From a virus, in IMG/VR virus record IMGVR_UViG_3300006922_002634, positions 1 to 24,277 of that record: DNA of 24,277 nt; one strand, written 5' to 3'. The translations under genes and the position numbers were made by a program. Shown here one piece after another: positions 4,018-20,923 of this stretch; position 1 is the stretch's first letter; every line of letters begins with the position of its first letter. The notes under the pieces are model-generated. The model did not search any database, had not been told where the DNA came from, and worked only from the letters and a program-made list of their open reading frames with translations.

Positions 4018-4892
4018 TATTTAGCACCTTCTACTTTTTTCTTACTAAGCTCTCCTAAAAAGTTTAGTATAACTGTATCTAACTCTGAGTAATTAGAACG
4101 TACATCTATAGGTATTTCTGCTGTATCTAATCCTTTCAAGCTAGCTAACATCAATGAAGATTGTCTTATAGTCTCAGGATTAGTAGGGTCTGAAGGATTA
4201 ATTTTCTGTGCAATCTTATCCCTAGACCTTTCAAAAGATACTATCTCTCTTTCCGTAAAGTTTTTAATTCTTCTTTCCTGACCTAGACCACCTCTGAAAT
4301 CACCACCACCAACAACTTCAGGTGCTTCTATATCAGGTGCATCTGAGGCTTGTGGTTCTTCTCCTAATGTTTCTGAACCTGTACTATAGAATGCATCAAC
4401 ATACGCATTGATACCTGCAATCACATCTGACTTTTGTCCTGCTGCATCAGTGCCTCTACCTTTAGGCATTTGACCATTTAGATAAGGTTCTACATAATCT
4501 GTGTATCCTTCCCATACTGAGAAAGGATTATTGTTATTATCTCTGACTATAGGAAACTGTTCAGGATTAGCTTTTACGTCATTTAAATAAGATATCGCAA
4601 AGTTTGCATTATACTGTGGGTCTTTCAATGCTTCTTCAAAATCTGATTCAGACAATGTATTACCTGTAGATTTAAAAAATTTACTTAATGATGGGTCAGG
4701 TTCATTGTTGTCATCATAAAAAGAACTTGCATTTATTTGAAATAAGCCTATAGCTTTTGTTGTATCATTCTGTGCTTCAGTCTCAAAGTTTGATTCATAA
4801 AAAGCAGTCATAACTAATGTAGGAATATCTTCTTTTGAAGCTCCTGCATTCTCTAAATATTTTACAATCTCTTGAGCAGTTACCTTTGCCAT
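4017..4892 (-). CDS. Lytic transglycosylase-like (SLT/lysozyme-fold) virion protein
   Basis: Residues 1-110 look like a lysozyme-fold transglycosylase domain. TAFYESNFETEAQND contains the expected catalytic Glu (E33) in an E-S-N-F context, followed 14 residues later by GLFQIN (49-54), a hallmark of SLT and goose-type lysozyme families. Such domains cleave peptidoglycan glycan strands. The remaining 180 residues contain a Gly/Pro/Glu linker (about 170-205) and a helical tail without recognised domains. Lying inside a block of virion genes rather than beside a holin, it is more likely a structural enzyme that opens the wall during DNA entry than a lysis endolysin; that distinction is inferred. 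AGAGGAG precedes the ATG, which overlaps the upstream stop (TAATG). Confidence 0.75.
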   Translation of the reverse strand: MAKVTAQEIVKYLENAGASKEDIPTLVMTAFYESNFETEAQNDTTKAIGLFQINASSFYDDNNEPDPSLSKFFKSTGNTLSESDFEEALKDPQYNANFAISYLNDVKANPEQFPIVRDNNNNPFSVWEGYTDYVEPYLNGQMPKGRGTDAAGQKSDVIAGINAYVDAFYSTGSETLGEEPQASDAPDIEAPEVVGGGDFRGGLGQERRIKNFTEREIVSFERSRDKIAQKINPSDPTNPETIRQSSLMLASLKGLDTAEIPIDVRSNYSELDTVILNFLGELSKKKVEGAK

Positions 4893-15512: not shown

Positions 15513-17433
15513 TCCATTCTACTACATCAAAGCCATCATAGCTAGGAGTGTAGTCAATTCCCATATCAGAATAATGAGCTTTTTGCAACTTACGCAAAAC
15601 CTTAATTGGAAACCAACTTGCCATAACTATATCAGATTTGTATACATTTTTCCGTTTGGCAGAAAAATAAGATAACTGTTTCCTATACATTTCAGATTTA
15701 ATCTGTGACTCTGTATTACCGTATGGCAAAACAATTAGTTTATCTTGAAACATAGGAGCTAAAGAAGTTACACCAAAGTGACTATCCCATTTGTTTTTAT
15801 AGGTTTCATGTCCTTCAAGAATAATTCCATTTACATTTGCATATTCTTTTATCCTAGGGTCTTGACGTATAGCTTTCTGAAAGTTGTTTTCTTCAATAAC
15901 CCAGTGATATAAGTTATACATTTTGTGCCATTCTTTAATAACTTGTAATGCTTCTTCTATACCACCACCTTTGTTATTTTGTATATCTATCATCTGTAAT
16001 AGAGAATCTTCCCCATTATCTAATATTGCCCATAAAAATGCTGCTTGATAACCTGATGCTGCAGGGTCTAGTCCTGCAACTAAATAGGAGTTTCTTGGTA
16101 TCTTTCCTACTACTTGCGTATTGTCCATACATTCTGTAATTGCTTCTACATTAAAAATAGATGCTCCACCTTCTCCTGGTCTATTCTGATAAACCATTTC
16201 AAATCTTTGTAAACCACCTGTAGTCATAGCATCTCTACGTCTTGACATTAACCATTTGTATGTTCTAAATCCTGACCATAGCATACAGTCTACGTGTTCT
16301 TCTTCTTCTAACTCAGGTATTTGACAACCTGAATCATGTGCTTCTTCCACGATAGTTTCCCATGCTTCTGAATCTAATAAGGAACTATAGATATCGTCAG
16401 GATGCTGTCTTGAACCAATAACAATAATAGCTGTATGTTCCTCTTTACGTGATGCCAACGTTGTTGTCCACCAGTTTTTTGTATTATGTCTTGCACGTGG
16501 TTGTGCAGTAGAAGCGTGGTCTTCAATGTCATCTGCAATAATTAAATCACAGTCACGAGAAAGTATCTTACCACCTTTACCTATACCAATAAGCGTTGGT
16601 GATTTTATACCATGTACTGTTCTTGTAGATACAGTAAAACCATTTTGTGACCAAGATTTACCAGTTCTTGTTTTAGGTTTAAACGTACCACCTGGTCCAC
16701 AAAAATCTTCTTTAAGTCCTTCGTTTGACTCTAATGTATCTATTACAGAAGACACTGAGTTCTTTGCAATATCTTCATTACCACCTACCCACATAATTCT
16801 TATGTTAGGATTTTTCATAATACGCCAAATAGTAAAGTGAATTAACAACTCAGTCTTACCATGACGTGGAGGTGACAGTATCATTTGCTGTCCACCTTCT
16901 TCTATAGCTTTGTTAAGTGAATTAATCCACTCCATATGGAATGGTGCAGTTTCAAATGGAATACCCTTCTCCGTTAAAAAATATCTATTTCTAAATTCTA
17001 CAAATGACTCTAATGCTTCAATAGCTTGTTCAGGTACATCCCAATCAGCTTGTGCTTTTTCTGATTCTAAATCTTCTTGATATGCTGCAAGAAATCTTGA
17101 TATCTGTGCTTTAGATACTTTAAGTATTTTAGCTGCATCATCTCTTGATATATCATCTTGAAGGACTTCCTGGACCAATCCATCTTTAACAAACTTTTCG
17201 TATACATCACCACGTCTAGCAGAAACCCGTCCATCTTTAGCTGTAGTTTTTTTCTTAGGCTCTTTAGCTTTAAGATTAGTTTTCTTTTCTTCAAGAATAT
17301 AAACTTCACCATTTTGTTTAGCTCGCCATTTTCTTTTATCTACTAACTGTCTACATTTATCAGAACAAAATTTTCTCTGTCCTTTAGGAAGTAAATTACT
17401 GCACTCAGGTACAGCACATACTACATTTACCAT
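15493..17433 (-). CDS. Terminase large subunit with N-terminal zinc finger and helix-turn-helix
   Basis: DNA-packaging motor with ATPase and nuclease domains. Walker A is SPPRHGKTE (residues 187-195), Walker B with catalytic acids is CDLIIADDIED (295-305), and a coupling motif IGSRQH sits at 339-344. The C-terminal RNase H-like nuclease shows AGLDPA (Asp456), VIEENNF (Glu514) and KSDIVMASW (Asp601). The N-terminus is unusual: a four-Cys finger (C6, C11, C23, C27), a Lys-rich linker, and a helix-turn-helix-like stretch at about 94-118 (ISRDDAAKILKVSKAQISRF) of the type expected in a small terminase. No separate small terminase gene is seen. At 646 residues it is longer than many large terminases, in keeping with the added domain. 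It overlaps its neighbours by 7 and 20 bases. Confidence 0.95.
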   Translation of the reverse strand: MVNVVCAVPECSNLLPKGQRKFCSDKCRQLVDKRKWRAKQNGEVYILEEKKTNLKAKEPKKKTTAKDGRVSARRGDVYEKFVKDGLVQEVLQDDISRDDAAKILKVSKAQISRFLAAYQEDLESEKAQADWDVPEQAIEALESFVEFRNRYFLTEKGIPFETAPFHMEWINSLNKAIEEGGQQMILSPPRHGKTELLIHFTIWRIMKNPNIRIMWVGGNEDIAKNSVSSVIDTLESNEGLKEDFCGPGGTFKPKTRTGKSWSQNGFTVSTRTVHGIKSPTLIGIGKGGKILSRDCDLIIADDIEDHASTAQPRARHNTKNWWTTTLASRKEEHTAIIVIGSRQHPDDIYSSLLDSEAWETIVEEAHDSGCQIPELEEEEHVDCMLWSGFRTYKWLMSRRRDAMTTGGLQRFEMVYQNRPGEGGASIFNVEAITECMDNTQVVGKIPRNSYLVAGLDPAASGYQAAFLWAILDNGEDSLLQMIDIQNNKGGGIEEALQVIKEWHKMYNLYHWVIEENNFQKAIRQDPRIKEYANVNGIILEGHETYKNKWDSHFGVTSLAPMFQDKLIVLPYGNTESQIKSEMYRKQLSYFSAKRKNVYKSDIVMASWFPIKVLRKLQKAHYSDMGIDYTPSYDGFDVVEWNDAPWR

Positions 17434-17699
17434 TTCACTTTATCAGCCCAGTAAGCTGCAGACATTTTTCCCTTTTTAATATTTTTAGCATGACGTGCTT
17501 TAAAAGATTTACGTCTAGCTTTCTGTTTAGCAGATGAAGGGTTTTTACCTGCACCCTTAACACCTTTTTGTCCAAAACGAATTAACTTAACTTTCTTGCC
17601 TTGTTTAGCAAGTACAGCATGTGATTTAGTTTTATGTCCAGGGGTACGTTTAGGTTTGTTATAACCTGAAAACTTTTCTCCTCTATAATTAATAGCCAT
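17427..17699 (-). CDS. Small very basic protein, ARRKSFKARH type (90 aa)
   Basis: Lys- and Arg-rich throughout, with no acidic patch. The C-terminal half (FGQKGVKGAGKNPSSAKQK, then ARRKSFKARHAK, and AAYWADKVKW at the end) resembles small proteins I recall from aquatic phages that have a similar ARRKxFxARH...YW...W end; their function is not known to me. The charge fits DNA or RNA binding, or a capsid-internal role. It ends 7 bases inside the terminase start, and its ATG overlaps the previous stop (TAATG). Codon use is as AT-rich as in its neighbours. Confidence 0.65.
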   Translation of the reverse strand: MAINYRGEKFSGYNKPKRTPGHKTKSHAVLAKQGKKVKLIRFGQKGVKGAGKNPSSAKQKARRKSFKARHAKNIKKGKMSAAYWADKVKW

Positions 17700-17893
17700 T
17701 ATTTCTTTTTCCTAACAGCCCTTGATTTCTGTACCTTTTTCAAATTAATATACTTTCCTGCTTTATAAGCAGCAGATGTACTTTTAATCTCACGTGCAAC
17801 AGAGGACTTAGAATTCTTTTTGTTCTTAAGGTACTTAGCAGGTACACCTTTTTCATATTTAACCTTACGTTTACTTCTTTTTTTTGGAGGCAC
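17699..17893 (-). CDS. Small basic protein starting MPPKK (64 aa)
   Basis: Function unknown. The reading frame extends to a GTG at 17905, but a ribosome-site-like GAAAGG directly abuts that codon, whereas it is about 11 bases from the GTG at 17893. Starting there gives MPPKKRSKRKVKYEKGVPAK, which closely parallels the MPPKKKPKRKP start of the next upstream protein. The middle has KGVPAKYLKNKKNSKSS and a helical REIKSTSAAYKAGKY, and the tail is Lys/Arg-rich. It overlaps the upstream gene end by 23 bases. Nucleic-acid binding or a capsid-internal basic protein is plausible from charge alone. Confidence 0.55.
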   Translation of the reverse strand: MPPKKRSKRKVKYEKGVPAKYLKNKKNSKSSVAREIKSTSAAYKAGKYINLKKVQKSRAVRKKK

Positions 17894-18146
17894 GTTTTTT
17901 ACCACCTTTCTTCTTTAAGTCATTATCTTGAGAATGACCACCCCTAATAAAAGAATTAACTCTCCCCATAGCCCAAGCAGCCATGGAAGCTGACTTACTA
18001 CCTGATGATAAATATGCTCCTTGTCCTCTTCGATATACGGAGGCAAGTTGTCCATAGGTGTATTTTGAATTAGCTGCCTTTTTTTGAAGTGTGGCTTTAG
18101 TTTTTGCATTAATAGGTTTCCTTTTAGGTTTTTTCTTAGGCGGCAT
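17871..18146 (-). CDS. DUF5824-like small basic phage protein (91 aa)
   Basis: The centre, with VYRRGQGAYLSSGSKSAS followed by AWAMGRVNSFIRG, matches a pattern I associate with the phage family DUF5824 (VYKRG..AY..SG.R.....AWA.ARV.SF). No function is established for that family to my knowledge. The N-terminus (MPPKKKPKRKP) and C-terminus (KKKGGKKRASKKKK) are strongly basic. It overlaps its neighbours on both sides, by 11 and 23 bases, within the block that precedes terminase. The family name is from memory and should be treated as tentative. Confidence 0.6.
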   Translation of the reverse strand: MPPKKKPKRKPINAKTKATLQKKAANSKYTYGQLASVYRRGQGAYLSSGSKSASMAAWAMGRVNSFIRGGHSQDNDLKKKGGKKRASKKKK

Positions 18147-18324
18147 TAGCTACCCCCTTCCATTTCTTACACCAAGCAAACGGTTGTACAATTGCATTCC
18201 ATAAAGAACAGTTACCTGTATTCTCATAGAAACTACAGTTGCTACATTTCTGATTACCTTTAGGAGCAAGTTGATATGCTTTAGGTAAATTACTAGAAAG
18301 TTGTTCTTGGTCGTTTATAGTCAT
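18136..18324 (-). CDS. Small four-Cys protein, HiPIP-like spacing (62 aa)
   Basis: Cysteines at 27, 30, 39 and 52 in the arrangement CSNCSFYENTGNCSLW and AWCKKWKG follow the order C-x2-C...C...C with an aromatic-rich surround, as in small high-potential iron-sulfur proteins (HiPIP), though the spacings (2, 8, 12) are shorter than the bacterial ones. Similar tiny proteins are frequent in phage genomes and their role is unknown. Binding of a 4Fe-4S cluster or zinc is equally possible from sequence. No Shine-Dalgarno site precedes the ATG, which lies 9 bases after the previous stop, suggesting reinitiation. Confidence 0.6.
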   Translation of the reverse strand: MTINDQEQLSSNLPKAYQLAPKGNQKCSNCSFYENTGNCSLWNAIVQPFAWCKKWKGVANAA

Positions 18325-18333
18325 AAAACTATA

Positions 18334-18405
18334 TTAGTACATTTTTTTAGATTTGCGTTTATTCTTCTTCTTGGACTTTGGTTTTTTCTTCATTCCGTAA
18401 CCCAT
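18334..18405 (-). CDS. Tiny Lys-rich peptide (23 aa), overlapping the zinc-finger gene
   Basis: Encodes MGYGMKKKPKSKKKNKRK and ends SKKMY. An AAGGAG site (18411-18416 on the minus strand) is 5 bases from the ATG at 18405; another in-frame ATG at 18408 would be only 2 bases away, so the second is preferred. It lies mostly inside the 3' half of the upstream Cys-rich ORF in a different frame. Short Lys-rich peptides occur in the head regions of some phages, possibly as DNA-condensing cofactors, but no function can be stated. Support is the strong ribosome site and the fit in the operon. Confidence 0.5.
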   Translation of the reverse strand: MGYGMKKKPKSKKKNKRKSKKMY

Positions 18406-18514
18406 CATATCTCCTTAATTTAACGTTATATTTTATACATGCAAGATTCTTACAATACTTCCACCTTCTAATAAAGGTTAAAGGTTTATTACAAACCTTG
18501 CAAGTTTTAATCAT
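18359..18514 (-). CDS. Mini zinc-finger protein (51 aa), first gene of the late operon
   Basis: Sequence starts MIKTCKVCNKPLTFIRRW; cysteines lie at 5, 8, 21 and 26 (C-x2-C-x12-C-x4-C), followed by a basic helix (IKYNVKLRRYDGLRN) and an acidic end. The order of finger and basic helix parallels the N-terminus of the terminase encoded downstream (C6, C11, C23, C27, then RQLVDKRKWR), although the spacings differ. The start has no Shine-Dalgarno site; instead a TATAAT ends 6 bases before the ATG, as expected for a leaderless mRNA. It may bind nucleic acid or a protein partner. Function is inferred only. Confidence 0.55.
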   Translation of the reverse strand: MIKTCKVCNKPLTFIRRWKYCKNLACIKYNVKLRRYDGLRNEEKTKVQEEE

Positions 18515-18520
18515 TATGAT

Positions 18521-18526
18521 ATTATA
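18521..18526 (-). promoter_or_regulatory. Late-operon -10 box (TATAAT), leaderless arrangement
   Basis: A perfect TATAAT on the minus strand is followed by six bases (ATCATA) and then the ATG at 18514, so +1 would be the A of the start codon. No convincing -35 was identified upstream, where the sequence is already coding on the opposite strand. It overlaps the plus-strand -10 by four bases. Confidence 0.6.
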
Positions 18527-18528
18527 GT
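18523..18528 (+). promoter_or_regulatory. Divergent -10 box (TATAGT), leaderless arrangement
   Basis: TATAGT on the plus strand is followed by six bases (TTACCC) and the ATG at 18535, the same geometry as the opposing promoter. No Shine-Dalgarno site is present before that ATG. Polymerase could probably occupy only one of the two overlapping -10 boxes at a time. Confidence 0.5.
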
Positions 18529-18534
18529 TTACCC

Positions 18535-18771
18535 ATGGATAAGATAACAGACAACGACATCAACAAAAAAGGTAGAGAAATTGCTATACGATTAGATTAT
18601 CTAATGGCACAAGTAGACAGTACATACAACAGACATCAAAGGTGTTTAGTATGTAACGAACAATACAAACACCATAATGATGGACTTCCGTGCATATCAG
18701 ATGATTCTTTAAAACCTATAGTACGCACAGACCGTTGGGGTAACGTTAAGAATAAAGAACCTCATCAATAA
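18535..18771 (+). CDS. Hypothetical Cys-containing protein opposite the late operon (78 aa)
   Basis: The N-terminal 30 residues look helical (DNDINKKGREIAIRLDYLMAQ), followed by CLVCNEQYKHHNDGLPC (C37, C40, H45, H46, C53), which could coordinate a metal as a small knuckle. No family is recognised. It is the only plus-strand gene left of 20471 and lies between the late operon and the nuclease gene, with its last 26 bases overlapping the nuclease stop in convergent orientation. The start lacks a ribosome site but sits 6 bases after a TATAGT, so leaderless initiation is proposed. Position opposite the late promoter makes a regulatory role possible, but this is speculation. Confidence 0.6.
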   Translation: MDKITDNDINKKGREIAIRLDYLMAQVDSTYNRHQRCLVCNEQYKHHNDGLPCISDDSLKPIVRTDRWGNVKNKEPHQ

Positions 18772-19273
18772 GTTCCTGACTTACCTTTATATTTTTTACA
18801 TCACCCGTAGCTTTTAACTCGCTAATAGGGACCAACAAAGAGCGTGAAAAAAAATTTTTATTTTCTGTTTTAACAATCTTATGTCCATCAGCTATCCAGT
18901 CTACAATCCAGGGATTGAGTCGCTTTGGTTGCCAGTAAAGGATTTCGGGTGTTCCATATATCCAGTAGAAGAGAAAGTCAGGGAATGTTTTCATAGCACA
19001 CCCAACGGATTTAAAGCCATCATTATCTACTATCTGTATTTCTAGGGCTACATTACCTGTATCTTTGGCTTGTGTATCTGTCTTAACTTCAAAGTATTTT
19101 GTACCTAACTCATTATTAACTACAAAAAAGTCTGCACCTTGTTGTTGTTCCCATTTCTTTGCAGGTCGTACGATATAGATATTCTTACCGTTCTCTCGCA
19201 TGTTTTCATAGAATCGTTGTATTAGTTTTTCACCCTGCTGTCCCACAGCAAGCTGTTCTTGGAAATCGTAAAT
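18746..19273 (-). CDS. PD-(D/E)XK nuclease-like protein, probable ATT start (175 aa)
   Basis: Likely a DNA endonuclease or recombination/repair nuclease. Counting from the ATT at 19273, GEK has E15 in the first helix, GADFFVV gives D48, and KYFEVKTD gives E62 and K64, matching the E...D...ExK core of the PD-(D/E)XK superfamily. The C-terminus is aromatic-rich (FPDFLFYWIYGTPEILYW). The first standard start in frame is GTG 19246, which has no ribosome site and would cut off part of the first helix. A consensus AAGGAGG (19279-19285) lies exactly 5 bases before an in-frame ATT, and no in-frame ATG exists further upstream, so ATT is preferred. Exact substrate is unknown. Confidence 0.7.
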   Translation of the reverse strand: MYDFQEQLAVGQQGEKLIQRFYENMRENGKNIYIVRPAKKWEQQQGADFFVVNNELGTKYFEVKTDTQAKDTGNVALEIQIVDNDGFKSVGCAMKTFPDFLFYWIYGTPEILYWQPKRLNPWIVDWIADGHKIVKTENKNFFSRSLLVPISELKATGDVKNIKVSQELIDEVLYS

Positions 19274-19278
19274 ATTAT

Positions 19279-19304
19279 CCTCCTTTGTTTCCTTTATAAT
19301 TATA
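19279..19304 (-). promoter_or_regulatory. Nuclease promoter -10 and consensus ribosome site
   Basis: On the minus strand, TATAAT (19304-19299) is preceded at 16 bp by TTGTAT, a fair -35, and followed about 14 bases later by AAGGAGG (19285-19279), five bases from the ATT at 19273. The -10 lies in the palindrome TATAATTATA, so it also reads as TATAAT on the plus strand (19295-19300), where it could start transcription into the gene-free region. Confidence 0.55.
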
Positions 19305-19500
19305 GTGTGGTAGGGTGGTTATACAAACATTTACATAACAGACGTGTTACAGGTAAGTGCTATCGGAGCGGCAAAAAGCTGACTGCATCTTAAAGATGGA
19401 CTGGGATTACCACAAAGTCAGTACCCAAGGACACTGAGGTCTTGTAAATAAAACTTTTAATAGCTTAGACTATATGCCCGCTACTGCCCAAAACGACACA
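19305..19500 (+). other. Gene-free segment with a bulged stem-loop (19379-19421)
   Basis: CTGACT (19379-19384) pairs perfectly with AGTCAG (19416-19421), with a G-T pair extending it, and encloses CATC-TTAAA-GATG (19386-19398). A plus-strand TATAAT at 19295-19300 lies about 80 bases upstream. No ORF with a start signal was found. This may be part of an untranslated RNA, but no known RNA family is recognised and short stems like this can occur by chance. Confidence 0.3.
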
Positions 19501-19566
19501 TTCCCCCCAATCGTACTGTAAGAAAAAGAATTTACTTCTTTTTACTGGACAAGCGTGTGTGTATGC

Positions 19567-19572
19567 TATAAT
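19567..19572 (+). promoter_or_regulatory. Extended -10 promoter (TGCTATAAT)
   Basis: A perfect TATAAT with the extended -10 element TG one base upstream (TG-C-TATAAT, TG at 19564-19565). TGGACA at 19546-19551 is a five-of-six -35 match but with a short 15-bp spacer; extended -10 promoters do not depend strongly on a -35. Six bases after the box begins the hairpin-forming GACACTTATC, so +1 probably falls at about 19579. Confidence 0.6.
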
Positions 19573-19578
19573 AAACTA

Positions 19579-19648
19579 GACACTTATCTACACAGGACAA
19601 ATTATCCTCCTGTAACTGTTATCCCAGTCAACTGTACTGATAAGTGTC
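19579..19648 (+). ncRNA. Candidate structured small RNA, about 70 nt
   Basis: GACACTTATC (19579-19588) and GATAAGTGTC (19639-19648) form a perfect 10-bp closing stem whose 5' end coincides with the predicted +1 of the extended -10 promoter. Inside, ACAGGA/TCCTGT (19592-19597 with 19608-19613) makes a 6-bp hairpin, and short CAGT/ACTG pairings around 19615-19638 may form a third arm. The size and shape are tRNA-like, but there is no TTCRA T-loop, so it is not a normal tRNA. No long ORF or good start is present. The 3' end may lie further downstream: no clear U-tract terminator was found. Confidence 0.45.
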
Positions 19649-19659
19649 ACGTCTAAAAT

Positions 19660-20069
19660 AACCTAGTTACCAGTAATTTTCGCAGACATCACATATAACA
19701 ACCCCCCCACCCCACATTAAATACCCCCGTTACAAGGTCACAACCTGTTATATTTATATCTTACAGTTCCTACCTACCCTACCCCCACCCCTTATTATGT
19801 TGCTCGCTATCGCTCACACCACTTTACTCCCCACCCAATAACTTTTACTTCTATATACCCCCCATATGTTGTATATGTCTAGTATATATATCTCATATGT
19901 ATCCCAATGTTACAAACCTCAGACACTCCCCCATACAAATACATATCTCTGATACATACTATATATTGTATATATACATCTCTATCTAATATATATATTC
20001 ATAGTATTGTTCTTAATGTTTGTATGTATCCTTATAACTTATCCCCCCCCTATATATAATCAATTCAGT
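19660..20069 (+). other. AT-rich, gene-free stretch with plus-strand C-runs
   Basis: No supportable gene. Runs of C lie at 19702-19708, 19710-19713, 19724-19728, 19782-19786, 19788-19791, 19829-19832, 19858-19863, 19928-19932 and 20043-20050, all on the plus strand, with a further run upstream at 19503-19508. Between them are TATATA-rich low-complexity tracts, mainly 19865-20060. The minus strand is correspondingly G-run-rich and may form G-quadruplexes. Origin, packaging or pausing functions are all possible; none is shown. Confidence 0.5.
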
Positions 20070-20085
20070 CTAACCTTCGGGTTAG
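20070..20085 (+). other. UUCG stem-loop without U-tract
   Basis: CTAACC (20070-20075), loop TTCG, and GGTTAG (20080-20085) form a perfect 6-bp stem with a stabilising tetraloop. It is not followed by T-runs on either strand, so a terminator role is unlikely. It lies just upstream of the inverted repeat at 20099. Confidence 0.5.
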
Positions 20086-20098
20086 CGTTATATCAAAA

Positions 20099-20126
20099 GT
20101 ATTAATTATACTATTACAATTAATAC
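20099..20126 (+). promoter_or_regulatory. Operator-like inverted repeat over a -10-like box
   Basis: GTATTAATT (20099-20107) and AATTAATAC (20118-20126) are perfect inverted 9-mers separated by 10 bases, so their centres are about 19 bp apart, or two helical turns. TATACT at 20107-20112 lies in the middle and could be the -10 of a plus-strand promoter feeding the 20471 gene, with +1 near 20119. No strong -35 is seen. A dimeric repressor site is the simplest reading. Confidence 0.5.
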
Positions 20127-20297
20127 CCGTGTTGCTCCATTGTTTATAGTCGTGTCATTCAGAACTCACTGTATCTGTCACTGCAACTCTATCATTCAGT
20201 TCGTTCTTGTATAGCTCGTACGCTCGCTCAACGCTCCCTAGCTTCGCTATAACATTCCACTCCTTAAACAATTACTCAGGCTACTTCCTTCTCACCC

Positions 20298-20338
20298 CTG
20301 TTAGGACAAGCCTAACAGCTCTTGCCGAGACGGCAGAG
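20298..20338 (+). other. Two abutting hairpins in the 5' region of the plus-strand operon
   Basis: CTGTTAGG (20298-20305), loop ACAAG, CCTAACAG (20311-20318) is a perfect 8-bp stem. Immediately next, 20319-20338 forms CTC-T-TGCC with a GAGAC loop and GGCA-GAG, a 7-bp stem with one bulge. No T-run follows. A weaker arm around GGG-TTCGT-CCC (20344-20354) comes after. From about 20127 to 20470 no ORF with a ribosome site was found. A 68-codon open frame at 20207 starts with TTG, has no start signal, and covers the hairpins, so it was not called. Confidence 0.5.
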
Positions 20339-20402
20339 TTACAGGGTTCGTCCCAGTGTAGCCTTCGTAAGCAACACTACTATCTCTTCCTTTCTACATT
20401 CC

Positions 20403-20447
20403 GTAACACTTGACGAAGAGTGTCAAGCGTTACTCACAAGGAGTAAC
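20403..20447 (+). promoter_or_regulatory. Mutually exclusive hairpins just upstream of the 20471 gene
   Basis: Hairpin A pairs GTAAC plus CTTGAC (20403-20414) with GTCAAG plus GTTAC (20422-20433), 11 pairs with one mismatch. Hairpin B pairs GTTACTC (20429-20435) with GAGTAAC (20441-20447), seven perfect pairs around ACAAG. The GTTAC at 20429-20433 is shared, so only one hairpin can form. The ribosome site AGAAAGG follows at 20454-20460. This is the geometry of a riboregulatory switch, but no ligand or known family is recognised. Confidence 0.5.
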
Positions 20448-20470
20448 ACATACAGAAAGGTAATAAGATT

Positions 20471-20923
20471 ATGGCTAAGCCAAAACTTAATACAGAGATA
20501 AATGACTATATGAAAGCTACTACTCCTTTCACTATAGGAAACAAAGCATACAGAGTAGGTGCTGGACGTGTTGATAACGCCGTGATAGGTTCTCAAGGGA
20601 AACCTGTAGCTAGATACGCTCTAGTTATAAACGGTAAACAATCTAAACACTTCCTTAGAAGTTGGCAGACTGTATATCAGGTACATCAAATTATACTTGG
20701 TGGTGACGCTGATAAGTTATTCACTAAGACTGGTGACCTAAAAGCTAGTATGCTTGTAGACCTTGGTACTGATAAGATAAGAGAAACATTCTCTTACGTA
20801 TGCCCTATCGGATTATACAATACAAATCCAGAGGCTAAGAAAGCTATCAACATAGCTGTAAAGAACCAAGTCAATCTCAAGAAAGATAACGTTTGGGAAC
20901 AATTCCTAACGTTTACAGAATAA
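20471..20923 (+). CDS. Hypothetical protein, first gene of the plus-strand operon (150 aa)
   Basis: No family recognised. A basic N-terminus (MAKPKLNTEINDYMKAT) is followed by short strands around residues 18-55 (FTIGNKAYRVGAGRV and PVARYALVINGKQSKHF), a helical stretch near 62-85 (RSWQTVYQVHQIILGGDADK), and a mixed C-terminal half. The beta-rich, Lys-rich first half might bind nucleic acid, but no motif proves it. No signal peptide or membrane segment is present. AGAAAGG lies 10 bases before the ATG, slightly far but usable. The long structured leader and candidate operator upstream suggest tight control. The stop overlaps the next mini-ORF as TAATG. Confidence 0.75.
   Translation: MAKPKLNTEINDYMKATTPFTIGNKAYRVGAGRVDNAVIGSQGKPVARYALVINGKQSKHFLRSWQTVYQVHQIILGGDADKLFTKTGDLKASMLVDLGTDKIRETFSYVCPIGLYNTNPEAKKAINIAVKNQVNLKKDNVWEQFLTFTE

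Follow-up and report, generated by a model that had tools for sequence, protein, structure and literature searches.

How are two protein-coding genes expressed from start codons that face away from each other across only 20 bp? M51 and P78 raise this question in the window, by which we mean the whole stretch of DNA that was analyzed, a 24-kb virus record (24,277 nucleotides) with terminase, portal, and capsid genes on its minus strand. M51 is the first gene downstream of the putative minus-strand promoter and is followed by small genes and then by the terminase, portal, and capsid genes. From 18512 to 18537, the plus strand of the window sequence reads CAT TATGAT ATTATAGT TTACCC ATG. An earlier note on this DNA had pointed to a minus-strand TATAAT and a plus-strand TATAGT that overlap by four bases (18523-18526) and end six bases before their respective ATGs; both boxes and their spacing are confirmed, with the A of the M51 ATG at 18514 and that of the P78 ATG at 18535. 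Its further statement that neither start has a ribosome site also held, since no Shine-Dalgarno-like sequence lies upstream of the M51 or P78 start, while many other genes in the window have one. The plus strand carries an additional -10 hexamer that the note did not mention, TATTAT, extended by TGn and preceded by TTGCAA as its -35; the 16-bp spacer between TTGCAA and TATTAT ends in TGA. The features considered here are as follows.

18359 to 18514, minus strand: M51, 51 amino acids, four conserved cysteines (C-x2-C, C-x4-C), with homologs that occur with and without P78.
18535 to 18771, plus strand: P78, 78 amino acids, divergent from M51, with the invariant motif H..C..C...HH.DGLPC.
18521 to 18526, minus strand: -10 element TATAAT, 6 nt before the M51 ATG, predicted transcription start at 18514, also found in relatives.
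18520 to 18525, plus strand: best-supported -10 element TATTAT, N9 to the P78 ATG, preceded by TGA at 18517-18519, register kept in 21 of 24 regions.
18523 to 18528, plus strand: alternative -10 element TATAGT, N6 to the P78 ATG, the choice of the earlier note, N6/7 register kept in 12 of 24 regions.
18498 to 18503, plus strand: -35-like TTGCAA, within the M51 coding sequence (first cysteine codon and the next codon).
18532 to 18535, plus strand: predicted start zone, inferred from the -10 positions (18532 from TATTAT, 18535 from TATAGT).

From the sequence and its conservation, we think it likely that a single bidirectional sigma-70-type promoter serves both M51 and P78, giving no leader on the minus side and at most a very short one on the plus side. 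Polymerase bound in one orientation would use TATAAT, and the M51 (late-cluster) message would begin at the A of the ATG. In the opposite orientation, TTGCAA together with TGA-TATTAT (or TATAGT) would start the P78 message 0 to 3 nt before its ATG. Both messages would lack a Shine-Dalgarno sequence, and their translation would follow the leaderless mode that is common in Actinobacteria. Because the opposite-strand -10 elements have bases in common (18521-18525 for TATTAT or 18523-18526 for TATAGT, shared with TATAAT at 18521-18526), only one polymerase could bind at a time; we infer this mutual exclusion, as we do the start sites, the order of evolution, and the switching discussed below.

A simple promoter scan of the window picks TTGCAA-16-TATTAT with TG for the plus strand. 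The window's consensus promoter matches did not exceed those in shuffled sequences, and the scan was dropped as stand-alone evidence; the case therefore depends on conservation. An archaeal promoter was rejected: the boxes lie 12 bp before the starts rather than about 26 to 30 bp, and the capsid relatives are actinophages.

IMG/VR scans with the terminase and with P78 turned up 160 loci. A back-to-back arrangement of P78 and M51 was looked for in 70 loci and in the window, and the pair was present in all except L149. These pairs reduce to 24 distinct intergenic sequences, from relatives that are not independent and that form 8 clusters at 70% P78 identity. Every one of the 24 regions has a minus-strand TANNNT box 6 or 7 nt ahead of the start codon of M51. 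Minus, plus, and both TANNNT-N6/7 boxes were found in 24, 12, and 12 of the 24, compared with means of 2.3, 3.3, and 0.25 when the intergenic bases were shuffled, and TANNNT at a gap of 6 or 7 occurs at 31 of 418 related-phage gene starts generally. In 14 distinct relatives that lack P78, where the upstream nuclease-like gene is followed directly by M51, TATAAT-N6/7-ATG was again present without exception (14/14). The presence of the box in all regions with P78 and all relatives without it indicates that the leaderless minus promoter is conserved independently of P78. Conservation of both -10 boxes, which the earlier note had proposed as a check, is thus borne out for the minus box, and the TATAGT register is kept in only half of the regions. 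The 20-bp spacing proved usual rather than fixed: the start-to-start gap among relatives is 14, 20, 21, or 22 bp, and the boxes track the starts. No conserved -35 for the minus promoter was seen by eye at 17 to 19 bp in relatives with or without P78.

The likely host is consistent with this arrangement. Relatives of the capsid protein are mostly phages of Mycobacterium, Propionibacterium, and Bifidobacterium, and the best terminase matches are Streptomyces phages. One related phage carries WhiB, which is absent from 19 of 20 related records and was set aside as a host marker. Three of five genome matches fall in one Actinomycetota MAG, RS345, and the other two fall in MAGs labelled proteobacteria, so that binning is no proof of host. 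RS345 has a GC content of 33.6% in the contigs sampled and is a putative host. Of 455 RS345 genes, 48 have a TANNNT that ends exactly 6 nt ahead of the ATG, compared with a background of 13.4 per position; comparison with host promoter rules, another check suggested by the earlier note, therefore came out in agreement. A TANNNT leaderless rule has been described for Actinobacteria, whose TA-led leaderless genes carry TANNNT some 12 bp ahead of the start codon and no Shine-Dalgarno sequence (PMC3160421), as here; the present locus differs in its two facing-away starts with common bases and in its low GC.

The plus side is less simple. The earlier note envisaged strictly leaderless promoters on both strands (TATAAT and TATAGT, each at N6) whose direct competition would switch expression between P78 and the late cluster, a reading that we regard as unlikely. 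It is favored by the presence of both boxes and by their joint retention at N6/7 in 12 of the 24 regions, as well as by L101, L104, and L114, in which the sole in-range plus -10 with TANNNT is a perfect TATAAT at N6; moreover, A at +1 is a favored initiating base. However, the remaining 12 regions have lost the plus N6/7 box (e.g., TCTAGT, CATAGT, and TATAAC) and keep an intact TANNNT three bases upstream (TATTAT, TATCAT, TAATCT, or TAACAT), at N9/N10. Overall, an N9/N10 TANNNT precedes the P78 ATG in 21 of the 24 regions, with TGn in front of it in 17 and TTGCA 16 or 17 bp away in 21. A comparable plus -35/-10 pair is present in all 24 distinct regions: 17 have TTGCA-16-TGn-TANNNT, 4 have a 17-bp spacer, and 3 have TTGCA-N19-TATAAT (N6). 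The strict pair is further disfavored by the absence of basal competition at five Escherichia coli bidirectional promoters (PMC12825309). TTGCAA/TATTAT is accordingly the better-supported plus promoter on sequence grounds, and TATAGT may be an alternative -10 used in the window's own lineage. The P78 message may start 0 to 3 nt before the ATG in the window and, with the N9/N10 box, may carry a leader of 3 to 4 nt. A start at the A of the ATG (18535) is possible; at 18532 the first base of the message would be C, with which initiation is disfavored. The prediction of a leaderless start is supported for M51, where TANNNT ends 6 to 7 nt upstream of the start in the window and in all distinct relatives with and without P78; the P78 message may be leaderless or nearly so.

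The conserved bases might instead be mainly a regulator operator, with a phage protein (perhaps M51 or P78) binding TTGCA or the 20-bp region and controlling both directions. We consider this quite unlikely, although several features are compatible with it. TTGCAA falls within a 10-nt imperfect palindrome, the minus promoter lacks an evident conserved -35, as might be expected if an activator is needed, and both products resemble small zinc proteins: the M51 cysteines C5, C8, C21, and C26 are invariant among homologs in relatives, the invariant P78 motif is probably zinc binding, and the cysteine and histidine patterns of the two proteins together suggest the same. Yet TTGCA stands at a normal -35 distance (16 to 17 bp) from the -10 in 21 of 24 regions, and no DNA-binding fold was recognized for M51 or P78. 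Searches for P78 function in Pfam, PHROGs, solved structures, and annotated phages and by two fold searches returned nothing reliable; its structure model (pLDDT 86) matched no fold. M51 gave just subthreshold zinc-finger-like matches and a structure model of low confidence. An Rfam search over 17400-20600 gave no match.

The plus-strand TTGCA is formed by M51's first cysteine codon together with the one that follows, and the form of that cysteine codon tracks P78. The first cysteine codon is TGC in 24 of 24 M51 genes with P78 and in 1 of 14 without it (Fisher p about 3e-9). The remaining cysteine codons of these 24 genes are TGC in 23 of 72 cases (Fisher p about 6e-10 relative to the first codon). 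With the relatives grouped into the 8 clusters (70% P78 identity), all-TGC at the background rate has a probability of about 1e-4. In L101, L104, and L114, two extra codons precede the first cysteine of M51 and the start gap has lost 6 bp; TTGCA nonetheless stays 32 nt from the P78 ATG, and this distance is 33 to 34 nt where gaps are 21 to 22 bp. Given the TGC bias and the kept distance, the opposite gene's promoter appears to maintain a silent position in M51. Other bases behave similarly: TGn-TANNNT is found in 17 of 24 regions with P78 and at the corresponding place in 0 of 14 without it, and the A that follows the minus -10 is present in 21 of 21 regions with P78 and gaps of 20 to 22 bp but in 8 of 14 without P78. 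It is therefore very improbable that only the minus promoter is real and that P78 is expressed from elsewhere, the plus elements being by-products of -10 symmetry and M51 coding: TATAAT is nearly palindromic, so that reverse hexamers come free, and the minus box fixes two of the N9 box's three defining bases, but the bases that it does not fix (the TGC, the TGn-TANNNT, and the A) are conserved only with P78.

Within the bidirectional promoter that we favor, the minus promoter is probably older than the plus promoter, as it is present without P78 and the phages with P78 have extra conserved reverse-strand bases. A one-way leaderless promoter would have gained a divergent gene, after which the reverse-direction bases would have become fixed. 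The alternative history is that P78 was lost and the reverse-direction bases relaxed. Competition might act as a switch between the M51 and P78 directions. At the five E. coli bidirectional promoters, basal firing is too low for competition without strong one-sided activation (PMC12825309); the late phase of phage growth could conceivably supply such activation. A more elaborate proposal is a minimal phage decision element in which late-promoter activation occludes P78 and P78 or M51 feeds back on the 20 bp, so that two leaderless zinc proteins and a shared -10 region would form a complete regulatory circuit; this we think improbable.

Bidirectional promoters are known mainly from transcription start maps of model bacteria, and the reverse RNA is often noncoding. 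The proposed promoter between M51 and P78 is an unusually compact case of this known type, its arrangement conserved in many related marine phages. In the bidirectional promoters described by Warman, Grainger, and colleagues, divergent starts flank a shared, pseudosymmetric -10, as they would here, and the most frequent start-to-start distance is 18 bp, with 10 and 23 bp also common and small deviations tolerated (PMC12825309, PMC10268837). The predicted starts in the window are 18 bp apart for 18514/18532 and 21 bp apart for 18514/18535, so the 18-bp distance would be matched if the plus start is 18532. The present case differs in that both products are proteins, the messages would have no or almost no leader, the promoter would fill the intergenic region, and the plus -35 lies within the opposite gene; it also belongs to a phage, some of whose relatives are without the divergent gene. 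The csoR-cueA divergon of Bradyrhizobium likewise has overlapping divergent -10 elements and a csoR message mapped as leaderless, but the second message of that pair carries a leader of 42 nt, and the site is bound by a known repressor (PMC5057107), whereas both sides are predicted to be leaderless or nearly so here. In RS345, der-like and ispH-like genes stand back to back with 26 bp between their starts (L218:16791-16818) and a TANNNT-N6-ATG box on each side (TATATT-N6-ATG and TATCCT-N6-ATG), so close leaderless divergence is not limited to phage; unlike the phage pair, these genes are cellular, and their -10 elements are 2 bp apart and do not overlap.

The locus is valuable in that a leaderless promoter is caught both without a divergent coding gene (14 distinct relatives) and with one (24 regions), and the bases newly constrained by reverse-side use, including a silent position in the opposite gene, are identified. 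It offers a concrete, testable route from a one-way to a two-way promoter, a case of leaderless translation letting a promoter occupy the whole intergenic region, and a rule for annotating gene starts in phages that belong to low-GC marine Actinobacteria.

Several further observations concern the surroundings. P78 homologs in L152-L161 lie directly after, or overlap the end of, another gene and have no adjoining M51, which marks P78 as a module moving between contexts. Relatives without P78 have a strong hairpin with a Shine-Dalgarno-like AAGGAGG loop immediately upstream of the M51 -10 element (L034:4342-4390, L045:870-915, L036 about 4247-4292, and L033 about 2093-2134). Its stem bases vary by lineage with pairing preserved, and the folds beat shuffles (z -2.7 to -6.6); the window showed no such hairpin. 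The gene that comes after M51 in the late cluster (18136-18324, minus strand) also has a leaderless-type box, TAATAT-N6-ATG, and no ribosome site. The minus-strand late cluster is separated from the plus-strand genes by about 1.2 kb (19274-20470) that is C-rich on the plus strand and without an evident gene, possibly a control or origin region; the part of it inside 17400-20600 matched nothing in Rfam.

The 3' end of P78 overlaps by 26 bp a convergent nuclease-like gene that lies upstream of the late cluster (18746-19273, minus strand). The first listed start of this gene is a GTG at 19246, and its homology extends upstream of that codon (IYDF.EQL), with AAAGGAGG just before an ATT at 19273. 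Translation probably begins at this ATT (AUU) codon. Distant relatives have ATG at the ATT position (MFDFEEQL), and the ATT is kept in most near relatives (L002, L004, L006, L008, L010, L012, L017, and L021).
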